Assembly (NCBI RefSeq): GCF_000230735.2
Contig: NC_019962.1
Location: forward strand, 3,162,001-3,226,000
Direction of reading: 5' to 3'
From: Natrinema pellirubrum DSM 15624
GTDB lineage: Archaea; Halobacteriota; Halobacteria; Halobacteriales; Natrialbaceae
DNA length: 64,000 nucleotides
Below, piece by piece: positions 43,377-54,918 of this stretch (the stretch's first letter is position 1; each line of letters starts with the position of its first letter). The position numbers and the translations under genes are program-made. The notes under the pieces are model-generated. The model had not been told where the DNA came from. It was given only the letters and a program-made list of their open reading frames with translations, and made no database searches.

Positions 43377-44077
43377 TCTCCCGCTTTGCGATCTATTTTG
43401 GTACTGTGAACACGAGTCAGTTACGAATTCCGTAATTCCGATTGTGCTGTGTTGCTGGTCTTGGACGGTTACATCGACGTTTCGCGCTGGCAACGTGTCG
43501 GTCACCGCGTCCCGTCGTCCGCATCGCCGGACTGCAGTCCGGTCGGGCCGCCGTCGGTCTGGGCCGGTCCCGTCGACTCCGTCGCCGGGCGATCGATCGT
43601 CGGCGTCGCGCCGGTCGGCTCCGTCCCGTCGTCCCCCGTCTCGGCCGCCGCCTCGTCCGTCCCCGATCGGCTCCCGAGCCACGTCCGAACGAGGTTGACG
43701 CCGTCCTGCACGAACGGCACCGGGTCGTCGGCGACGGCGTAATCGAACCGTGGGTGAGCGATGAGCGACGTCGCAACCTCGCGGACGGCGGACCCGAGCG
43801 ACGGTCGCTCGACCAGCGGATACTCCTCGGTGGCGACGCTGTGTACGTAGCTGAGTTCGCCCCGCAGCAGATGGCCGCCCACGCCGACCTCGTAGGTCGG
43901 CTCCGACGTGATCGGCTCGCCGGTCGCCAACTGCCAGTAGTAGGCGGGAAAGTCCGCGCCCGCCCGGACCGAGAACGGCAACGAGGACCAGAATCGCGGG
44001 TTGATCTCCATCAGCTTGAACTCGCCGTCGGACGGATCCCGCAGGAACTCCACCATCGCGAGCCCGTGCCACTCGAG

Positions 44078-45210
44078 TTGCTCTGTTGCAGCGTCGAATA
44101 GCACCAGTTTCAGCCTTGTTCTCGGCTGATTTCCGTGAGGCTTGTGGGGAATTGGACGCCGTCTTGCGATATGAGGTCGAAACGGCCGATCATACGGCAG
44201 TGTAAGAATCTTGCCAAACAGCACGTGGATAACCCTGACGAACCCGCTGCGCCGGACGGCGCCAGCGGGTTCGCCGAGTGGACTCAGATCGCGTTTATCC
44301 TCTTGCATGCGGAACTCGACAAAGATTTCCGAGAGACTGAAGCATGGTTCAATGACTCCAGAGCCATCCGTGAAGAGCTTAACATCGACAAATCGCCGGA
44401 TCACACCACGCTCTGTCGATGGGAGCAACAGGTCGACATGCGTGAACTCCGCAGCCTGCTCCGCCGCAGTGCGGAGCAGGCTGGCTGGTCGGGAACAGCA
44501 GCAATCGACGCCAGTGGCTTCCAGCGAGATCAAACCAGCTATCATTACCGGAATCGTGCTGGCTTCTCGTTTCACAAGCTGAAGACAACGATTTTGGTCG
44601 ATACAGAGTCACTGGCGATCAAAGACGTTCATTTCACGACGAAGCGCAAGTGGGACGGACACATCGGCTTGCAGGTCTATCGGCGCAACGCCGAAGACCT
44701 GCAAGAGTTCCTTGCAGATGCGAACTATTCGTGGTCAGATCTCAGAGAGGAGTGTCGCGCTGGCGCGACACGACCGCTAATCAAACACAGGGAGCACAAT
44801 GCGCTGAAGAAAGCGCATAACGCTCGGATGGACGAAGATCTGTACCATCAGCGGACACTGAGTGAGACTGCGTTCTCACTGCTGAAGGATGACGGTGAGA
44901 AGTTACGCTCTCGGAGCTGGCACGGCCAGTTCCGAGAGCTCACGCGCAAGTGTATCGTGCATAACCTATCGCAGGCGGCGAGTTAGGGCTCGCCGCCTGC
45001 TCTCTTTCTCTGGACGTATCCGCCAGAGACATCGCCGTCATCCACGTACGGGTTCTCACAAAGTGACCTAATTCTGATGGTTGCAGAATCAACGAACTGT
45101 ACTCCTCCCACATCATCCAGATCTCAAAACCATCAGTACAGGAGTTCTAACGCCACCTGCCTGAATGTCAAAGTTTCAATACTGCCGCCGTCTTGCGTTC
45201 AACAGAGCAA
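44078..45210 (+). mobile_element. IS5-type insertion sequence, about 1.13 kb
   Basis: Terminal inverted repeats TTGCTCTGTTG at 44078-44088 and CAACAGAGCAA at 45200-45210, flanked by CTCGAG on both sides (44072-44077 and 45211-45216) as a 6-base target duplication; because CTCGAG is its own reverse complement the exact boundary is less certain. It contains one intact transposase and a 220-base tail without a gene. GCCGTCTTGCG occurs near both ends (44155-44168 and 45187-45197), a subterminal repeat. Different from the element at 18191-19260. Confidence 0.85.
44171..44986 (+). CDS. IS5-family transposase (second element)
   Basis: A 271-residue DDE transposase. The start (ATG 44171) reads MRSKRPIIRQCKNLAKQHVD. 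The N-terminal DNA-binding part has FAEWTQIAFILLHAELDKDF. Catalytic residues are expected in AAIDASGFQRD, FLADANYSWSD and RTLSETAFSLLKDD. ORF intact. It shows little similarity to the transposase at 18240-19241 beyond family-level features. Confidence 0.88.
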   Translation: MRSKRPIIRQCKNLAKQHVDNPDEPAAPDGASGFAEWTQIAFILLHAELDKDFRETEAWFNDSRAIREELNIDKSPDHTTLCRWEQQVDMRELRSLLRRSAEQAGWSGTAAIDASGFQRDQTSYHYRNRAGFSFHKLKTTILVDTESLAIKDVHFTTKRKWDGHIGLQVYRRNAEDLQEFLADANYSWSDLREECRAGATRPLIKHREHNALKKAHNARMDEDLYHQRTLSETAFSLLKDDGEKLRSRSWHGQFRELTRKCIVHNLSQAAS

Positions 45211-46028
45211 CTCGAGTTCGTCGAGCAGCGCCCGCCCCGCGTCCTCGAGTTCCGGGATGAAGACCGATTCCCGGTAGGCGCTGGGTCCGCCACAGTACTT
45301 CCAGCCCCGTCGCTGGCAGTGCTGGAAGGTCGCGACCGGGTCCCCGTGATCGTACAGCGCGAAGAAGCCGTACTCCGGCGAGTCCGGGATCCGTTCTTGG
45401 ACCAGCGGCACGTGGCCTCGCGTGTCGATCTCGGCCTGCCGGTCCGGTTCCGTTCCCGGAGGCTGGTACTCGGTCGAGCCGATCGTCGCGTGTGCCGCGC
45501 TCGAGCCGAGATAGGCCGGTGCCGCGACGGTGTAGCGCGGTTTGACGATCGTCTCGCGATCCCAGTCGTCCCACTCGTCGAGAAGGGCGGTCTCGGGGGC
45601 CGCGACGCCGGCCGCGTCGGCGGCGGCGAAGAGTTCGACCCGGTCCTGGACACGGCGAAGGGTCTCGAACGACGGCCACGGGGTCGCGACGTCCGTCGCG
45701 AACTCGTCCCTGCGGTTCGCGAGGACGTAGACGTCTTCCTCGCGGACCGGGACGATCGTCTCGATATCGGTCCGTTCGGCGAGCGAGCGGAGGGCGTCGC
45801 CGTACGCGGCGAGATCGGTCTCGGGGTCGGGCAGCCCCACGAACTCGTCGCGATAGGCCGACGTCGCCGCCGGCGTCGATCGCGACTCGGAGCCGACGAC
45901 GGTTCGAACGCCGCGCGGTCGAAGCGAGCGGCAACAGGCGACCGTACTCGGGGCGGCGATTCCCGGCACGAGAACGCTCGCGTCCTCCCTGTGACGTTGC
46001 ATGAGCAGCGACTGAGGACGGCCGGTTC

Positions 46029-46042
46029 CATTGTTATAGATC
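46029..46042 (-). promoter_or_regulatory. TATA element for the interrupted ATP-grasp gene
   Basis: On the minus strand, ATCTATAACAATGG lies about 27-40 bases before the ATG at 46002. It supports this start over the longer open frame to 46149. The remaining gap 46043-46456 holds no gene that I can support. Confidence 0.45.
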
Positions 46043-46456
46043 GGGTACAGCGGCGGGACGACGACACCACCGGCCCGGCTTCCGACCGGTGGCTGTAGGC
46101 GCGGGCTACCCACGGCCGGCACCGAGACGCCAGTACGACCGGCTGCCACGAGTCGAACCCGTCGATTCCGGCGGCCGACAACCGATAGCAGGCGCTAGGA
46201 CGGCGCTACAGGACTCGTATGTCGCTCCTATCGATCGGACACCGGACCGGCCGGTGTGGGTGCGACGAGCCGCCGGCCGACGAGGCGGGAGCTGACGGGG
46301 ACGAGTCGGCCGGCTGAGACACGGTCACGGTCCCGCCGCGCTCGAGAGACGGGAGCCGATCCCGGAGCTACCGTCGGCCCGCCAGCGCCGTCGCTGGACG
46401 GACTCGAGAACCCCGAAGACTCGGGGAAGAAAAACCGCGGGGTAGACGGAATCGAC

Positions 46457-47338
46457 TTAGAGCAGTCCCGTCTTCTGGAGCTTCATCAGGTCCTCGGTGT
46501 CGAGGGTTTCGCCTTCCTTGAACTTCTGGTAGATCTCCTCGGCCTCTTCCTTGGCCTCTTCTTTCTTCTTGTCGCGCTCGGACTTGCGCTCTTCTTCCTC
46601 TTTCTTGTCCAGTTCGCGCAGGCGCTTCTGGACGCGGACGAAGTCCTCGTGGTGGCGGTCGGCGGCCTCCTGGGCCTCGACGAACTTCTCGTGCATCTCG
46701 TCGGCCTCGTCACGGATGTCGTCGGCCTCCCGATAGGCCTCGATCATCTGGTTGTGATGTTCCTGGGCCTTGTCGGCGAGTTCCGTGACCTTCTGGTGGT
46801 GCTGGGAGGCTTCCGATCGTACTTCCTCGGCCTCCTCGACGAGTTCCTCGAGGTCCTCGTTCTGATCGAGTTTCTGCTTGCGCTCCTCGTACTCCTCGCG
46901 CTTGCTCTCGATCTTCTCGATGAGTTCCTGCTCTTCCTCGCTCGAGAGGACCTCGGTCTGCTGTTTGAACTCGAGGTCTTCGATCTCCTCTTCGAGGTCC
47001 TCGAGGTCCTTGCCCTCGTCGAGCTCCATGTCCGATTTGAGCTGTTCGACCTTGTCGAACAGTTCGTTGGCCTCGGCGTTGAGCTCGTTGCGGCTCTCCT
47101 TGTGTTCCTGGACCTGCTCGTTGAGTTCGTCGCGTTTCTCGCGGTGCTCCTGGGCTTCGTCGACCTTCTCGCGAGTCTTCGCGTTAAGGTCGTCGCGTTT
47201 GGAAGCCCGGTCAGAAGCCATCTGGTTCAGCTCGTTGCGCCGGTCTCGCAGTTGACCGGCCATCTTGATGAGCTGTCCTTTCGATTTGTTTTCTAGGTCG
47301 TCCTCTGTCAGTTCGATGTTCTTCGATTCGTCTACCAT
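46457..47338 (-). CDS. Archaeal coiled-coil protein (COG1340-like)
   Basis: A 293-residue protein that is almost all coiled coil with strong Glu/Lys/Arg/Gln heptads (LRDRRNELNQMASDR, REKVDEAQEHREKRDELNEQ, EERKQKLDQNEDLEELVEEA). No enzyme motif. This matches the archaeal uncharacterised coiled-coil group COG1340, which is conserved in haloarchaea. ATG at 47338 (MVDESKNIEL) is preferred over a longer frame. The upstream gap 47339-47651 shows AT-rich promoter-like tracts near 47560-47660 but no gene. Confidence 0.8.
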   Translation of the reverse strand: MVDESKNIELTEDDLENKSKGQLIKMAGQLRDRRNELNQMASDRASKRDDLNAKTREKVDEAQEHREKRDELNEQVQEHKESRNELNAEANELFDKVEQLKSDMELDEGKDLEDLEEEIEDLEFKQQTEVLSSEEEQELIEKIESKREEYEERKQKLDQNEDLEELVEEAEEVRSEASQHHQKVTELADKAQEHHNQMIEAYREADDIRDEADEMHEKFVEAQEAADRHHEDFVRVQKRLRELDKKEEEERKSERDKKKEEAKEEAEEIYQKFKEGETLDTEDLMKLQKTGLL

Positions 47339-47651
47339 GTTAGTCAAACCTCTGTGCCATACCCGCACCGGGAAACCGACCGGCCGGCCGTCCGAGCCGA
47401 TCGCCGGCGATTCGGCGATCGGTTCGGCGGTAGCCAACCAGTCGTTCGAAGCGACTGCTCACGATCTGCGAAACCTCGGTGAATAAGATTTCCTGTCATC
47501 GATCGTCGAGCGATACGCGCCCCGGTGGCGTTCTGGTGACTGGTACTATTGTCGCCTCTAATTTAAAACTACCGGTACCCCAACCCCTGAAAACGGTTCG
47601 CAGGGGCCTCGTCTCGCCCCGTTAGCCCGTGACATGGTGGGCCGAACGTAG

Positions 47652-49568
47652 TTATAAATAGTACCGGTTACGGACCGTTCGATCACCGACGGCGACCTCG
47701 AGATCGACCCGCTCCGCGTCGGGCGGAATCCGGGCGGTTCCGGCGGAGGCCGTCTCGAGGGGGTCGACGTCTACCGTCGTCGCGGCCGTCTCCTCGCCCG
47801 CACGCCAGCCGACGGTCGTCTCGACGGCCTCGTGGCTGTCGTTACAGAGCGTGATCCCGACGGCCCCCGGCGTCGGCGGCCCGTCAAGGACGGCCTGAAT
47901 CGGCTCGTAGGACTGCGCGATCGCCTCGGCGGCCCGCTTTGGCTCGCCGTCGGCGGTGTGAGCGCCCATGCCGCCGCCCGGTGCGGGGTCGCGGAGCGTC
48001 GACGCCGCGAGGACGCCACATTCCCGCCGGCGGAGCGTCTCGGCGACCGTTTTCAGGATTTGTGCCTGCTCGCGCTGTGAGTCCTCGGCGTCGGCCCCGT
48101 CGGCGAGCAGGGACGGCTCGAGTCCCGGTATCGTCGCCGGGTCGGCCTCATCGGTTGCGAGCGATCCGGCGCCGAATCGGCCGACCACCTCACCGAGCGA
48201 CGGGTACGTCTCGAGCAGCCAGTCGATATCGGCGGCCTCGAGGTATCGCCAGCCCGGGAAGAGATGCGCCGCGTCGGGGTCGGTTCCCGGGGGGCCGGCC
48301 ACCGACACGACCGGCAGCTCGTCGGGGAGGTTCTCGGCGATCTCGTCCGCCGGTTCCCGGTCGACCGACGCTCGCCACGCCCGATACCGGACGGCGAGTT
48401 TCGCGAGCAAGCCCTCTCCAAGCGGCTCCGCGTACGGATCGGCCGGCCGGTCCTGAACGCCGTACATCGCGAGGCTCGGATGGCCGCCGTACGCCTCGGC
48501 CAGCGCCGTCGCCAGTTCGATCCCCCGCTCGACCGGGAGATCGGCCCCGCAGGCCGGCAGGTCCTGCCAGACCAGCAGTCCAGCCTCGTCACAGGCCTCG
48601 TAGAACGACGGGGACGGGACGTGACCGCGCGCCCGGAGCAACGTTGCGTTCGCGTCGACGGCCCGGTCGACGTCCGCGCGGGGATCGCCGCCGGGAAGCC
48701 GCGTGAACCCGCGGGCCCGCACCCGGCGGCCGTTGACCAGCAGTCCGTCGCCGTCGCGCTCGACGCGGCGCAGCCCGACCGTCCGCTCGCGGGTATCGCC
48801 CTCGAGTTTCGCCCGGACGGTGTAGCGGTCCTGCGGGCCGTACTCGCGGGGCCACCACAGCGACGGCTCCCTGATCGTGAGCGTCCGCGAGACGGTGGTC
48901 CGTTCCCCCGCCTCGGCCCGCACGGGCACCCGCTCCATGGCCGCGCCGCCGCGAAAGCCCTCGGGCCGCAGCGACAGCGTTACGGCGTCGTCGACGGCCG
49001 CCCCCGCGTCGACCTCGAGGGTCACGTCGATCGCGGCGCCCGCGCCGTCGAGAGCCGCGTTCGCGGCCGACGCGGCCCCCTCGCTCGCATCGCCCGCCGA
49101 CACCGGTCCCAATCGCGGACGGGCCTCGAACGCTCGCAGGAATGTCCGGGGACGGGACTCGACCGCGACGCCCCAGCGGATCCCAGGCGTGTCGAACCGG
49201 TCGGGGACCGCGTCGGTCCCGCGGATTCCGGCGAAGGAGTCCGGCCGTTCACAGACGACCAGTAATTCGTTCTCCAGGCGGGGATCGAACTCGAGACGGG
49301 CCGGGACGAACCCCACGTCGCTCGCGCCCAGCCGCGACCCGTTCAGCCAGGCCTCGGCCGGACCGTCCGTGCCGCCGATCTCGAGCAGCGCCCGTTCGGA
49401 CGCCTCGTCCCGCGGATCCGGAACCGTCGTTCGATAGGTGATCGGGCCGTCCGCGTCGGCGAACGCCGCAGGGCGGCCGGGCACCGATACCGGTCGCCAC
49501 CCTTCGACGGTCGGCGGGTCGTCACCGCCGGCGTCGGTGACGACGCCGGCAGTCCACTCGTCGGTCAT
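47652..49568 (-). CDS. GH2-fold protein, catalytic glutamates apparently lost
   Basis: A 638-residue protein with the layout of glycoside hydrolase family 2: an N-terminal galactose-binding-like sandwich (YRTTVPDPRDEASERALLEI, AEAWLNGSRLG), an immunoglobulin-like domain, a TIM-barrel region (GRRVRARGFTRLPGGDPRAD ... VPSPSFYEACDEAGLLVWQD) and a C-terminal beta-domain. At the acid/base site the sequence reads HPSLAMYGVQDRPADP where active enzymes have N-E, and at the nucleophile site EVVGRFGAGSL where beta-mannosidases have S-E-F-G. Both catalytic Glu seem to be missing, so it may only bind sugars. Confidence 0.75.
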   Translation of the reverse strand: MTDEWTAGVVTDAGGDDPPTVEGWRPVSVPGRPAAFADADGPITYRTTVPDPRDEASERALLEIGGTDGPAEAWLNGSRLGASDVGFVPARLEFDPRLENELLVVCERPDSFAGIRGTDAVPDRFDTPGIRWGVAVESRPRTFLRAFEARPRLGPVSAGDASEGAASAANAALDGAGAAIDVTLEVDAGAAVDDAVTLSLRPEGFRGGAAMERVPVRAEAGERTTVSRTLTIREPSLWWPREYGPQDRYTVRAKLEGDTRERTVGLRRVERDGDGLLVNGRRVRARGFTRLPGGDPRADVDRAVDANATLLRARGHVPSPSFYEACDEAGLLVWQDLPACGADLPVERGIELATALAEAYGGHPSLAMYGVQDRPADPYAEPLGEGLLAKLAVRYRAWRASVDREPADEIAENLPDELPVVSVAGPPGTDPDAAHLFPGWRYLEAADIDWLLETYPSLGEVVGRFGAGSLATDEADPATIPGLEPSLLADGADAEDSQREQAQILKTVAETLRRRECGVLAASTLRDPAPGGGMGAHTADGEPKRAAEAIAQSYEPIQAVLDGPPTPGAVGITLCNDSHEAVETTVGWRAGEETAATTVDVDPLETASAGTARIPPDAERVDLEVAVGDRTVRNRYYL

Positions 49569-49691: not shown

Positions 49692-50774
49692 TCAGAACAG
49701 GTTCTCGAGGCGGTCGTCGGCGAACTCTTCGGCGTGGTCTGTCGATTCTTCCTCCTGAGCCTCCTTGGCCTCGCGGGCCCGTTCCATGAACGCCTGGACC
49801 CGGTCGGAGCGCTCGGCACCGCCGAGCAACACCAGCGCACCCAGCCGATCGCTGTCCAGCGGGAAGTCCCCGCCCCGGACCTGCATGCTGCCGGTTTCGT
49901 CCTCGAGCCAGCGCCGGGCGCGCTCGACGCCCTTGCGCGGGATGGCGTCGGGCTGGCCGGCGATGACCAACAGCGCGGAGTCGGCCGTGGTCGCGTCGGG
50001 CAGGCTCGTCCCCGTCAACAGCGCCTGCCGCGAGACGGTCATCGCGGTGTTGATGTTCTCGGCGCTGTCGTCGCTTGCCACCTCGGTCGCGTAGCCAAGC
50101 GCCGCGACCCCGCCCGCTCGGAGGGTGTTGATGACCTCGCTCGAGTCGACAACGCTCTCGCCGACGCCCTCGACGGCTTCCCCGGAGGCAAAGAGCAGGC
50201 CGACCCGTTTCGCGATCCGGTCGTTGATCGTCTCGAAGGCACCTTCGACGCTCTCGCCCTGTTCGTGCCAGGCGTCGTTGTCGATCAACAGCGTCGAGTC
50301 GGCCTCCCGCAGCAGCGTCTTCAGCGAACGGCCGGCGTTTGCCTGATACAGCGCCCCCTCGTTGCGCCCGGGCAACACGCCCAGCGCGTAGACGGGGACG
50401 TCGTAGACCTGCTGAAGGTTGTGGACCAACACGGGCGCGCCGCCGCTGCCGGTGCCGCCGCCCAGTCCGGCGACGACGACGATCGCTTCGGCGCTCGAGG
50501 TTACTCGGCCGTCGAGCGCGCCGAGTACTTGCTGGATGTCGGCCTGCATCACTTCCGTGCCGAGTTCGTTGTCGCCGCCGACGCCGTGGCCGTTGACGCG
50601 GTCGGCACCGATCAGCTTCGTATCGACAACGTCGAGGGACTGGAGGTCGGGCCTCGCGGAGTTGACGGCCAGGGCTCCCTGGACGGCTCCGAAGTCCATG
50701 TTCGCGTCGAACCTCGCGAGCCGTTCGGTGATCTTCCCACCGGCCTGACCGACCCCGATCAGGGCTACTTTCAT
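49692..50774 (-). CDS. cetZ: Tubulin-like cytoskeletal protein CetZ
   Basis: A 360-residue tubulin-superfamily GTPase, a member of the archaeal CetZ group that controls cell shape and motility. The N-terminal nucleotide motif is KVALIGVGQAGGKITERL, then AVNSARPDLQSLD, the tubulin signature GLGGGTGSGGAPV and NAGRSLKTLLREAD. It differs from the FtsZ1 at 14468-15634 by the CetZ-type GVGQAGG start and the C-terminal helix rich in Glu/Arg. The ATG at 50774 is chosen; the longer reading adds 28 non-domain residues. GTTAAAC about 33 bases upstream may be its TATA box. Confidence 0.9.
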   Translation of the reverse strand: MKVALIGVGQAGGKITERLARFDANMDFGAVQGALAVNSARPDLQSLDVVDTKLIGADRVNGHGVGGDNELGTEVMQADIQQVLGALDGRVTSSAEAIVVVAGLGGGTGSGGAPVLVHNLQQVYDVPVYALGVLPGRNEGALYQANAGRSLKTLLREADSTLLIDNDAWHEQGESVEGAFETINDRIAKRVGLLFASGEAVEGVGESVVDSSEVINTLRAGGVAALGYATEVASDDSAENINTAMTVSRQALLTGTSLPDATTADSALLVIAGQPDAIPRKGVERARRWLEDETGSMQVRGGDFPLDSDRLGALVLLGGAERSDRVQAFMERAREAKEAQEEESTDHAEEFADDRLENLF

Positions 50775-50933
50775 ACCACTTGCATATGGGAGGGGGCTGT
50801 TTAACGTTCCGGTGATCTGAGACGTGGGTTCGAACGCGGCGAACGCACGATAGGCCACTCGGAACGGGAGACACCGGCGTCCCAGTCACCGCAGTTCACA
50901 ACACACTTGTGGAGTATCCCCGTCGGGTTCGGT

Positions 50934-51359
50934 ATGTTCCACGAACAGCGGATGACCGTCCCGGACTCGCCCGCCGACCTCTGGGCCGAGTACGCGGACG
51001 ACCTCGCGGCGATCGTTACGGAACGTGGCCCCGCCAAAGCGGCCGCCGAAACCGACCTCGAGCGGGAGCGCCTCGAGGCGGTCGCCGCGGGCGAGCTGCC
51101 GGAGCTGACCCTCGAGGAGGCCGCGGCGATCCAGTCGCTGGCCGAGGGCGCGCCCGATCCCGAGACGACGAAGACGATGGCGCTGGAACACCTACTGCTG
51201 GGAATGTCGACGGCGGTACTCGACGTCGACGCCGTCGAGAGCGAACTCGAGATCGACCTCGATGCCAAGGAGATCCAACAGAAGATCGAGAGCCGCGCGC
51301 CGATGTCGTTCGACGAGTTCGTCCACGTCCAGTACGTGATCGCGGACGGCGCGCCGTAG
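50934..51359 (+). CDS. DUF5791-type haloarchaeal protein
   Basis: A 141-residue acidic, helical protein, which I recall as the DUF5791 family. The start (MFHEQRMTVPDSPADLWAEY) leads into LAAIVTERGPAKAAAETDL and later LEHLLLGMSTAVLDVDAVES. No metal or catalytic motif visible. Divergent from cetZ with a 159-base shared upstream region; in haloarchaea this gene often lies near cetZ, but a link is not shown here. Function unknown. Confidence 0.65.
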   Translation: MFHEQRMTVPDSPADLWAEYADDLAAIVTERGPAKAAAETDLERERLEAVAAGELPELTLEEAAAIQSLAEGAPDPETTKTMALEHLLLGMSTAVLDVDAVESELEIDLDAKEIQQKIESRAPMSFDEFVHVQYVIADGAP

Positions 51360-51426
51360 CGCTGCCCGGTAACGGTCATTGATACCGCGCCCCGTGATTT
51401 ATCGCCCTCGACGGCGTCGACCCACC

Positions 51427-52668
51427 ATGTCGAACACGGAGCGCAGCGAGAACCGGCGTCGGGAGATCGACGACATTCTGGCACGGAAACCCGGCACCAA
51501 GGGAGTCACCGATCTCGCGGACCGGTATCGAGTGGTCGGTGCCGCGGACCGGGAGACGTACGCGAACTGGCTGACGCCGGTCGCGGAACACTACGTCTGT
51601 CACCGCAACGAGACGCTGGATCCCGTGGCCGAGGAGTGGACCGTCGAACTCGGCGGCGCGGTCGAGCGCGACGCCGAACTCGAGATGGCCGCGATCCGAG
51701 AGGAGTATCCGACGGTCGCCGTCGCCCACACGATGGAGTGTGCGGGCAACGGGCGGGGCTACTTCGAGCCCGAGACGGGGAGCGTCCAGTGGGAGTACGG
51801 AGCGGTCAGCACCGCGTTCTGGACGGGAACCCCATTGCGGTCGGTCCTCGTCGATCACGGCGCGGCGACCGACGACATGTGGCTCACCGCGGTCGGCGGC
51901 GATCGCCCGGAAGTCGACGGCGAGAACGACCGGTTCGCCCGCTCGATTTCGATGGAGAAGGTACTGGCCGACTGCGTCCTCGCCTACGAGGTGAACGGGC
52001 AGCCGCTGCCCCCGGAACACGGCCACCCGGTTCGACTGCTCGTCCCCGGCTGGTACGGCGTCAACAGCGTCAAGTGGGTCACCGAACTCCACGTGACCGA
52101 GACGATGGTCCACGGCGAGGAGTGGACGGACCGCGACGGGGAAGATTACACCCGTTGGCAGCAGTCGTCCTACCGGATCCACCCTGAGGGCGTCGAACCC
52201 GAGTCGAACGCGACGATCCCGACGTTCGACACGTGGGACCAGCTCGAGTCGGCCGAGATCGACCACCCCTACACCTTCGACCAGAACGTCAAGTCGACGA
52301 TCGGTGCGCCCGACGACGGCGCGACCGTCTCGAGCGAGGACGGGCCGATCGCGGTCGTCGGCGTCGCCTGGGCCGGCGACGACGCGGTGACGAGCGTCGA
52401 GGTCTCGACCGACGGCGGTGAGGAGTGGACCGAGGCCGAGTGTGTCGGCCCGGACTACGACTGCGCCTGGCGGCTGTTTCGCTACGACTGGGAGCCCGCG
52501 CCGGGCAGCCACATGCTCGTCTCGCGGGCGACCGACGAGCGCGGTCGCCGCCAGCCCATGCGGATCGCAGCACCCGAGGACGAGGCAGACGACGAGTACC
52601 CGTGGAACGAGGGCGGCTACGCCGAAAACGCCTGTCTCCCCCACGCGGTCGAGGTCACCGTCGAGTGA
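51427..52668 (+). CDS. Sulfite oxidase family molybdopterin enzyme
   Basis: A 413-residue molybdenum-cofactor enzyme of the sulfite oxidase fold. The Mo-ligating cysteine is in HTMECAGNGRGYFEP, preceded by a substrate/cofactor region (WTVELGGAVERDAELEM) and followed by PLRSVLVDHGAATDD and HPVRLLVPGWYGVNSVKWV, all family hallmarks. The C-terminal 120 residues form the Mo-co dimerisation domain (GVAWAGDDAVTSVEVSTDGG). No signal peptide, so it is cytoplasmic. The native substrate (sulfite or another compound) is not fixed by sequence. ATG at 51427. Confidence 0.88.
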   Translation: MSNTERSENRRREIDDILARKPGTKGVTDLADRYRVVGAADRETYANWLTPVAEHYVCHRNETLDPVAEEWTVELGGAVERDAELEMAAIREEYPTVAVAHTMECAGNGRGYFEPETGSVQWEYGAVSTAFWTGTPLRSVLVDHGAATDDMWLTAVGGDRPEVDGENDRFARSISMEKVLADCVLAYEVNGQPLPPEHGHPVRLLVPGWYGVNSVKWVTELHVTETMVHGEEWTDRDGEDYTRWQQSSYRIHPEGVEPESNATIPTFDTWDQLESAEIDHPYTFDQNVKSTIGAPDDGATVSSEDGPIAVVGVAWAGDDAVTSVEVSTDGGEEWTEAECVGPDYDCAWRLFRYDWEPAPGSHMLVSRATDERGRRQPMRIAAPEDEADDEYPWNEGGYAENACLPHAVEVTVE

Positions 52669-52780
52669 TGCCGATCGCGGCTCGAGTCCCCCGATTGAAT
52701 ATTCACGGGAATCGGCGCGGAGACAGGAGAAAACCGATCTCGAGCGGTGTAATTATGTACGGGCGACCACGACTCGACGT

Positions 52781-53677
52781 ATGAAGGTTGCAATTCTGGG
52801 CTGTGGGCACGTCGGTCTCGAACTGGGCCGCCAGCTCGCGGCGCGGGGCCACGAGCCGATCGGCGTTCGCCGGTCGGCCGATGGGGTCGAGCGGATCGAA
52901 GACGCCGGCTTCGAGGGGATTCGAGCCGACGTCACCGACCGCGAGGCGCTTTCGGCGGTTCCCGACGTCGACGCCGTCGTCTTTGCCGCCAGCAGCGGCG
53001 GCCGCGGTGCCGAGGCCGCCCGCGAGGTCTACGTCGAAGGGCTACAGACTGCCATCGAGGCCTTCGGCGAGCGCGAGGCCCCCCCGGACCGACTGGTCTA
53101 CACCTCCTCGACGGGGGTCCACGGCGACCACGACGGCGACTGGGTCGACGAGGAAACGCCCCTCGAGCCGACGACGGAGAAGACCGAGGTGCTGGCCGAG
53201 GCCGAACGGATCGCCCTCGAACTGCCCCCGGAGTACGGCGTCGAGGGGACCGTCGCCCGCTACGCCGGCCTCTACGGTCCCGGCCGGTATCGCCTCGAGC
53301 GCTACCTCGAGGGGCCGGTCACGGAGGGGTATCTCAATATGGTCCACCGCGACGACGCCGCCGGCGCGGTCCGGTACCTGCTTACGGACGACCTCGCGCG
53401 CGGGGAGGTCGTCCAGATCGTCGACGACGAGCCGGCCTCGAAGTGGACGTTCGCGGACTGGCTGGCCGACGAGTGCGGCGTCGACCGGCCGCCCAAGCGG
53501 ACGAAAGCCGAGCGGCTCGAAGACGACGACCTCTCCGAGGCGAGCCGGCGGCGGATCCTGACGAGCAAACGCTGTTCGAACGGGAAACTGCGCGACCTCG
53601 GCTACGAGTTCGCGTATCCGACTTTCCGTGAGGGGTATCGCGACGCGATCGATCGCTATCGCGGGACCGAGAAGTAA
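52781..53677 (+). CDS. NAD(P)-dependent epimerase/SDR family protein (YeeZ-like)
   Basis: A 298-residue extended SDR enzyme. The Rossmann motif is LGCGHVGLELGRQLAARG, then AVVFAASSGGRGAEAA, and the catalytic Ser/Tyr region is VYTSSTGVHGDHDGDWVDEE with GVEGTVARYAGLYGPGRYRL, in which the usual YxxxK is not clear. Related proteins include ladderlike oxidoreductases (YeeZ type). Substrate unknown. The ATG at 52781 follows a TAATTATG box about 30 bases upstream. Confidence 0.75.
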   Translation: MKVAILGCGHVGLELGRQLAARGHEPIGVRRSADGVERIEDAGFEGIRADVTDREALSAVPDVDAVVFAASSGGRGAEAAREVYVEGLQTAIEAFGEREAPPDRLVYTSSTGVHGDHDGDWVDEETPLEPTTEKTEVLAEAERIALELPPEYGVEGTVARYAGLYGPGRYRLERYLEGPVTEGYLNMVHRDDAAGAVRYLLTDDLARGEVVQIVDDEPASKWTFADWLADECGVDRPPKRTKAERLEDDDLSEASRRRILTSKRCSNGKLRDLGYEFAYPTFREGYRDAIDRYRGTEK

Positions 53678-53730
53678 CAGCGGGCCGGAATCGGGGGAAA
53701 ATTCTTGAGGGTTCGATCTGATTTCCGGGT

Positions 53731-54918
53731 ATGAGCTATCGGAGCGCCCCGATCGACGGTGGGGTCGTCGGGGCGACACCGCTCGCGACCGAGTCGATCG
53801 GCGACTCGGTGCGCTCCCTCGAGCCGCTCGTTCTCTCCCTGCTGGTGCTTGCCGTCGTCGGGCTCGCCGTCGGCGGCTGGTGGGTCGTGCGGTGGTTCCG
53901 GCGGCCGCCAGGCGCGCAGTTACAGCGGCTGCTGGCGACCCACGACGAGGTGACGGTGTTGATGCACCCGAACCCGGATCCCGACGCCATGTCGTGTGCG
54001 ATGGGCGTCGCGGCGATCGCCGACGCAGTCGACACCGACGCCGAGTTGCAGTACGCCGGCGAGATCCGCCATCAGGAGAACCGGGCGTTCCGGACCGTTC
54101 TCGAGTTGGAGATGGACGCGATCGACGCCAGCTCCCAGCTCGCCGCGGACCCGGTCGTCCTGGTCGATCACAACACGCCGCGTGGCTTCACCGGGGCCCA
54201 GACCGTCGAGCCGATCGCGGTCGTCGACCACCACCCCGGCAACGGTGCCGGCACGAAGTTCACCGACGTCCGGACCGACTACGGCGCGGCCTCGACGATC
54301 ATCGTCGAGTACTTAGAGGAGATCGGGGCGACGCTGGACGACGGGGAGGGCAGCGGCCCCGAAGTATCGCCGGAACTCGCGACCGGGCTGCTCTATGGCA
54401 TCCAGTCGGATACGAACCACCTGACCAACGGCTGCTCGCGGGCCGAGTTCGACGCCTGTGCGACGCTGTTTTCCGGGATCGACGAGGACCTGCTCGATCG
54501 GATCGCGAACCCGCAGGTCAGCGACGACGTCCTCCGGGTTAAGGCGACGGCGATCACCGAAAAGCGGATCGAGGGCCCCTTCGCCGTCTGTGACGTCGGC
54601 GAGATCGGCAACGTCGATGCGATCCCCCAGGCCGCCGACGAACTCATGCACCTCGAGGGGGTGACGGCCGTCGTCGTCTACGGCGAACACGACGGGACGA
54701 TCCACCTCTCGGGGCGGTCCCGGGACGATCGGGTCCACATGGGTGAGGCGCTTCGCCACGCCATCAGCGACATTCCGATGGCGAGTGCGGGCGGCCACGC
54801 GCGGATGGGCGGCGGCCAGCTCTCGATCGATCACATGAACGGGATCGGTCCTTCCGACGGCATCAGCCGCGATGAGTTCGAAGAGCGCCTCTTCTCTGCG
54901 ATGGCCGGCGAGCGCTAG
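53731..54918 (+). CDS. DHH-family phosphoesterase with N-terminal membrane helix
   Basis: A 395-residue protein. A membrane helix (LVLSLLVLAVVGLAVGGWWV) is near residue 30. The DHH phosphoesterase motifs follow: MHPNPDPDAMSCAMG, VVLVDHNTPRG, AVVDHHPGNG and the C-terminal DHHA1 element GGHARMGGGQLS. This layout resembles GdpP/DhhP-type or nano-RNase-like enzymes that cleave cyclic dinucleotides or short RNA. Anchoring to the membrane suggests a signalling phosphodiesterase role, which is inference. Its stop overlaps the stop of the convergent PfkB gene by 4 bases. Confidence 0.83.
   Translation: MSYRSAPIDGGVVGATPLATESIGDSVRSLEPLVLSLLVLAVVGLAVGGWWVVRWFRRPPGAQLQRLLATHDEVTVLMHPNPDPDAMSCAMGVAAIADAVDTDAELQYAGEIRHQENRAFRTVLELEMDAIDASSQLAADPVVLVDHNTPRGFTGAQTVEPIAVVDHHPGNGAGTKFTDVRTDYGAASTIIVEYLEEIGATLDDGEGSGPEVSPELATGLLYGIQSDTNHLTNGCSRAEFDACATLFSGIDEDLLDRIANPQVSDDVLRVKATAITEKRIEGPFAVCDVGEIGNVDAIPQAADELMHLEGVTAVVVYGEHDGTIHLSGRSRDDRVHMGEALRHAISDIPMASAGGHARMGGGQLSIDHMNGIGPSDGISRDEFEERLFSAMAGER

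Follow-up and report, generated by a model that had tools for sequence, protein, structure and literature searches.

A GH2-fold protein without either catalytic glutamate in Natrinema pellirubrum: a probable pseudoenzyme from a haloarchaeal family with variously eroded active sites

The window analysed here, a stretch of 64 000 nucleotides from Natrinema pellirubrum DSM 15624, encodes a 638-residue protein (minus-strand ORF 47652–49568, stop included) that is predicted to have the fold of a GH2 glycosidase and that carries arginine at the positions of both the acid/base and the nucleophile glutamate. We put the probability at roughly two-thirds that this is a GH2-fold pseudoenzyme which has lost the chemistry of a retaining glycosidase and now has a non-hydrolytic role, in binding or as a scaffold. 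The loss of catalysis in the window's own group is well supported; the non-catalytic function is what we infer from it. The features of the locus are as follows, with the domain boundaries placed by eye.

46457–47338, minus strand: DUF7121 coiled-coil protein, the downstream neighbour (PF23435, E = 1.8e-145; start taken at the ATG)
47348–47651, minus strand: spacer before DUF7121, containing a TATA-like box and a noncoding block that is conserved (alignments of the locus)
47652–49568, minus strand: gene of the putative GH2-like pseudoenzyme (PF00703, E = 1e-6; AlphaFold2 pLDDT 89.5, pTM 0.91)
47655–47900, minus strand: C-terminal beta domain, residues 557–638 (AlphaFold2 model)
47901–48773, minus strand: TIM-barrel region, diverged, residues 266–556 (AlphaFold2 model and structural alignments)
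48774–49043, minus strand: Ig-like GH2 domain, residues 176–265 (PF00703 at 174–267 and the model)
49110–49568, minus strand: N-terminal beta-sandwich (sugar-binding-like) domain, residues 1–153 (secondary structure of the model; PF22666 at 43–106, below cut-off)
48177–48179, minus strand: codon of Arg464, predicted nucleophile Glu position (profile alignments and family alignment)
48447–48449, minus strand: codon of Arg374, predicted acid/base Glu position (profile alignments and family alignment)
48450–48452, minus strand: codon of Asp373, predicted position of the Asn before the acid/base (profile and family alignments)
48633–48635, minus strand: codon of Arg312 (kept in 107/107 haloarchaeal and 17/17 bacterial rows of the alignment)
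49692–50774, minus strand: CetZ tubulin-like protein, the upstream neighbour (PF21011, E = 3e-63)

The GH2 signature in the sequence of the protein is modest. PF00703 scores 29.9 bits against a cut-off of 23 and is matched at 0.001 by 17 of the 19 haloarchaeal orthologues that make up our profile A1; these 19 members match four Pfam families at that threshold, and the catalytic barrel, PF02836, is not among them. The NCBIfam models for the GalA and GalB beta-galactosidases give weak matches to the protein, far under cut-off. The N. pellirubrum genome holds neither a second match to the protein nor any match to the PF02836 barrel, so an active partner paralogue is not evident. A simple hydropathy scan of the 107 haloarchaeal rows of the family alignment (see below) found no transmembrane-like segment or hydrophobic N-terminus, and the protein is probably cytoplasmic on this basis, although a twin arginine within the first 35 residues of three of these rows leaves room for export. 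A single scan of viral contigs (query P0001) returned no relative.

The AlphaFold2 model, built from the 19 haloarchaeal orthologues, has a pLDDT of 89.5 and a pTM of 0.91. Foldseek and VIA-align place the whole predicted chain (aligned range 1–638) on GH2 enzymes, and the beta-sandwich, Ig-like and TIM-barrel arrangement of GH2 is present in the model. The first-pass annotation had supposed that the fold was preserved along all 638 residues, and for the predicted structure this holds: the full GH2 fold is retained. The highest structural Z is to the redox-regulated GH2 enzyme CapGH2b (PDB entries 9npf and 9nfe; Z = 31.8 to 9npf); the titles of its entries mention E465A and E553Q mutants as well as an active conformation, and we read E465 and E553 as its catalytic pair. 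The same multi-domain architecture is seen in the GH2 exo-beta-mannosidase of Xanthomonas axonopodis pv. citri (PDB entry 6byc; Z = 27.9, r.m.s.d. 4.3 over 566 aligned residues) and in the Bacteroides beta-mannosidase (PDB entry 2je8). The Xanthomonas enzyme is also the best sequence-profile match to the haloarchaeal family. Unlike these two enzymes, to which it has 19–22% identity, the window protein lacks both catalytic glutamates and the asparagine that precedes the acid/base. The tryptophan of WQLND aligns with Ser523. We weighed this tryptophan as a possible marker of inactivation and rejected it, as the residue is not tryptophan in bacterial relatives (intact ones included) or in one control.

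The two segments in which the glutamates had been reported missing are MYGVQDRP (residues 368–375) at the acid/base and VVGRFGAGS (residues 461–469) at the nucleophile, and two profile routes lead to the same assignment. When profile A1 was aligned with PDB sequences, its consensus 'vhde' fell on NNE of the Xanthomonas exo-beta-mannosidase and SNE of PDB entry 7kgz, and 'gefga' fell on SEYGA of 7kgz. Aligning A1 with A3, a profile of intact bacterial relatives, using hhalign (E = 1.2e-63) paired GVQDRP with GHNEP and VVGRFGAGS with FVSEFGAQA; A3 in turn aligns its NE and SEFG with CGNNE and MSEYG of PDB entry 6bye. PDB titles give E477 as the acid/base (6byi) and E575 as the nucleophile (6byg), and with a numbering offset of 28 the aligned residues would be these two. 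At the level of sequence profiles, it is thus confirmed that Arg374 and Arg464 occupy the acid/base and nucleophile positions.

The double displacement of a retaining GH2 enzyme cannot run without a nucleophile and an acid/base. A protein with neither should therefore act by binding or scaffolding. Proteins of the window's branch would no longer be able to form the covalent glycosyl-enzyme intermediate; a ligand might be bound without hydrolysis, either on the beta-sandwich domains or in what remains of the pocket; alternatively, the protein might serve as a rigid scaffold. The Klotho-type pseudoenzymes of GH1 offer a precedent for a glycosidase fold that has lost its catalytic glutamate and is used for binding, but they belong to another GH family and are extracellular and eukaryotic. 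The suggestion that the protein is a pseudoenzyme is supported by the replacement of both glutamates and the preceding asparagine, by the absence of a conserved barrel glutamate, by the retained fold and by purifying selection on the gene. The sugar-binding or regulatory role suggested with it is conjectural; among the aligned pocket-side residues compared, Arg312 is kept in all 107 haloarchaeal rows, Trp334 in 96 and His316 in 84.

The first-pass annotation treated the protein as a single oddity; it is in fact one branch of a haloarchaeal family with variously eroded catalytic positions. Orthologues at an E value of 1.7e-46 or better are present in 60 of the 146 genomes searched of the order (67 with any match, seven of them weak), and a class-wide profile search gave a match of any kind in 172 of 391 genomes, a count that includes GH2 paralogues. 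The 141 proteins collected were reduced to 129 when identical ones were collapsed, and 127 were used for the tree: 107 from haloarchaea, 17 from bacteria and three controls, which are haloarchaeal GH2 paralogues. Rows were dropped because they were a fragment (L064), split over frames (L040 and L049) or badly aligned (L159 and L050). The 107 haloarchaeal rows are sequences rather than species, as species were resampled across overlapping genome sets.

Among these 107 rows, both glutamates are found in seven, only the nucleophile in 32, only the acid/base in 22 and neither in 36, and the remaining ten have a gap at the nucleophile; the nucleophile glutamate is thus kept in 39 rows and the acid/base glutamate in 29. 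The full set of Asn-Glu plus Glu occurs in none of them, compared with eight of the 17 bacterial relatives and all three controls. With seven haloarchaeal rows that keep both glutamates as DE + E and a further 29 that read DD + E, activity may survive in parts of this family, possibly with a changed chemistry. A carboxylate is missing at both positions in 15 rows. In the window's own group (seven rows) position 374 is Arg, Trp or Gln and position 464 is Arg, Trp or Gly. It had been proposed that conservation of the changes in relatives be examined; the loss is indeed widespread, but the changes are not uniform, with one or both glutamates still present in some relatives. A loss that is common to the clade and takes varied forms is neither one isolated error nor a product of chance.

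On a quick tree (LG+G4, with the catalytic columns left out of the build and several long branches flagged), parsimony has the nucleophile position change 12 times or more and the acid/base position 15 times or more. The tree alone gives no direction; loss is the more economical interpretation given that there are intact outgroups. In a genus-level clade of ten rows (g16; L051–L060) the proteins are 534–561 residues long and the barrel segment carrying the nucleophile is missing. A model of this clade, from a shallow alignment, has a mean pLDDT of 59.7, with most of the barrel below 50 and a best Z of about 15.7.

The closest bacterial relatives that we found are GH2-like proteins of Acidimicrobiales and Actinobacteria (L155–L158 and L160–L172), which have 26–31% identity and share a WQDLP motif. 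Eight of the 17 keep NE + E and eight have lost the nucleophile glutamate; these rows are a biased sample, having been picked by the WQDLP pattern among the best 80 of 199 relatives. Ten of the bacterial genes (L155–L157, L160, L162, L166 and L169–L172) appear beside AAA/VWA-like genes, several also beside succinate-dehydrogenase-like genes, as judged by eye with a codon-position filter, and no sugar-utilization cluster was recognized by eye around these ten loci. A first clustering of the ORFs in the bacterial gene context was discarded, as it was swamped by the antisense ORFs of GC-rich DNA.

The most constant companion of the haloarchaeal gene is DUF7121. In one genome set together with the window, 58 of 60 loci have it downstream in the same orientation, no more than 2.5 kb away. 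Of the two misses, L056 sits at the end of a contig, and at L050 about 4 kb of sequence was to spare. It is present at 58 of 63 haloarchaeal loci in a second set, where L151 and L159 are at a contig edge and L152, L153 and L154 have 2.4–6 kb to spare; the two sets overlap in species and the counts are not additive. A functional tie between the GH2-like protein and this coiled-coil neighbour may be suspected, as a lead rather than a result. DUF7121 is, however, found in all 382 haloarchaeal genomes searched and the GH2-like gene is not, so the adjacency may be an old placement without function. The gap between the two genes is 90–845 bp and contains a TATA-like box of its own, and co-transcription is therefore not implied. 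CetZ is the immediate upstream neighbour at loci of Natrinema, Halobiforma and Natronoglomus, and in Natribaculum it stands some 3 kb away on the upstream side; it was not found at the remaining GH2-like loci tested.

The spacer itself (47348–47651, minus strand) has the TATA-like sequence TTTAAAT and a conserved noncoding block that ends in GGGTATGGCACAGAGGT. Nine genomes without the GH2-like gene retain pieces of it, at 78–88% identity over 124–290 bp, and the block is kept in part in Haloarcula and Halorussus. It may form a long leader to DUF7121. A search of Rfam over the locus gave two matches only, both far below the gathering scores, and the RNAalifold signal on the spacer is weak (−3.9 kcal/mol).

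These neighbours raise the possibility that the GH2-like protein is a structural partner in a real complex with the DUF7121 coiled coil or with the cytoskeleton. The adjacency to DUF7121 holds across families while other neighbours change, and cetZ regions are reported, in the part of PMC9856176 available, to hold sugar epimerase genes. We nevertheless regard such a complex as unlikely, although it is compatible with the pseudoenzyme reading. CetZ and DUF7121 occur together without the GH2-like gene, separated by a gap of 296–596 bp, in nine of ten genomes examined that have no listed match to it (five of the same genus and five of the same family); CetZ was not found in the tenth (L178). The adjacency to CetZ is limited to a few genera, the spacer places a separate TATA-like box before DUF7121, and the four loci noted above that have sequence to spare (L050 and L152–L154) have no DUF7121 downstream.

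That the gene has simply lost an ordinary GH2 function and is drifting towards loss with no new role is improbable in our judgement, although several observations point that way. Nine of 21 genomes of the window's genus have no match (11 have a strong and one a weak match), and with close relatives lacking it the gene is accessory or dispensable. Among the empty sites, that of L182 holds an 83 bp piece with 81% identity to the 3′ end of the GH2-like gene and a weaker 35 bp piece, and this remnant points to gene loss in that lineage. The two genes split over frames and the low-confidence barrel of the truncated g16 clade would also fit decay. The pairwise dN/dS of the gene (NG86, nine Natrinema/Halobiforma pairs) is 0.22–0.34, compared with 0.01–0.17 for CetZ and 0.03–0.10 for DUF7121 in the same pairs: in the window's own group, for which alone these values were measured, the gene is under purifying selection, with weaker constraint than its two neighbours. 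Against decay, in addition to this selection, stand 48 columns kept at 97% or more among the 97 full-length rows and the unbroken reading frame of the gene in most of the 60 genomes with an orthologue.

There is only a slim chance that the window protein is still an enzyme with different chemistry, using other groups or catalysing a different reaction, such as one on an activated sugar: although Arg312 is kept in every haloarchaeal row, D336 and D527 are kept in nearly all full-length rows, a GPPGTDPDAA-like stretch recurs near residues 425–434 and the DD + E rows combine a nucleophile glutamate with an acid/base aspartate, no barrel glutamate reaches 97% conservation among the 97 full-length rows, the catalytic columns of the window's group vary as described, and the segment bearing the nucleophile is missing in ten members. 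D336 and D527 are the only acidic barrel residues conserved at 97% or more, and they look structural, since they are conserved in the intact bacterial relatives as well (Asp in 17/17 bacterial rows and 2/3 controls for D336, and in 16/17 and 3/3 for D527). A substitute catalytic glutamate common to the whole family is therefore unlikely, as far as sequence conservation can tell.

The pseudoenzyme reading concerns the window's branch. A bolder version, which we hold to be rather doubtful, would extend it to the whole haloarchaeal orthologue family: hydrolysis would have been given up throughout, in favour of a cytoplasmic scaffold that senses sugars or nucleotide sugars together with DUF7121 (and in some Natrialbaceae sits beside CetZ), linking the sugar state of the cell to its architecture, with different branches keeping different leftovers of the active site.

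In the published literature that we searched, which leaves out most subscription journals, we found no report of the GH2-like family or of DUF7121. The available part of PMC9856176 describes cetZ neighbourhoods with epimerase genes and contains no occurrence of 'hydrolase' or 'coiled-coil'; that of PMC10963439 concerns a different gene, an 844-residue GH2 beta-mannosidase, and lists GH2 among the arabinogalactan families. We expect that similarity-based annotation may count genes such as this one as sugar-degrading capacity. The graded series seen here (intact in some bacteria, then one glutamate, none, and a missing segment) lends itself naturally to testing how a glycosidase turns into a pseudoenzyme, and the near-constant neighbour provides a first lead to DUF7121, a haloarchaeal family with no assigned function that is present in every genome searched.

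Two further observations were made in the window. The region at 49692–54918, with its genes for CetZ, DUF5791, an epimerase and a DHH-family protein, is similar in gene content to the surroundings of cetZ2 as given in the available part of PMC9856176. On the other side of the locus, a DDE_Tnp_1 transposase ORF (44135–44986) lies between two opposite-strand pieces that resemble ATP-grasp/PylC proteins (window positions 43502–46149); when searched separately both pieces fall below the Pfam cut-off, and the arrangement suggests that the transposase was inserted into an ATP-grasp/PylC-like gene.
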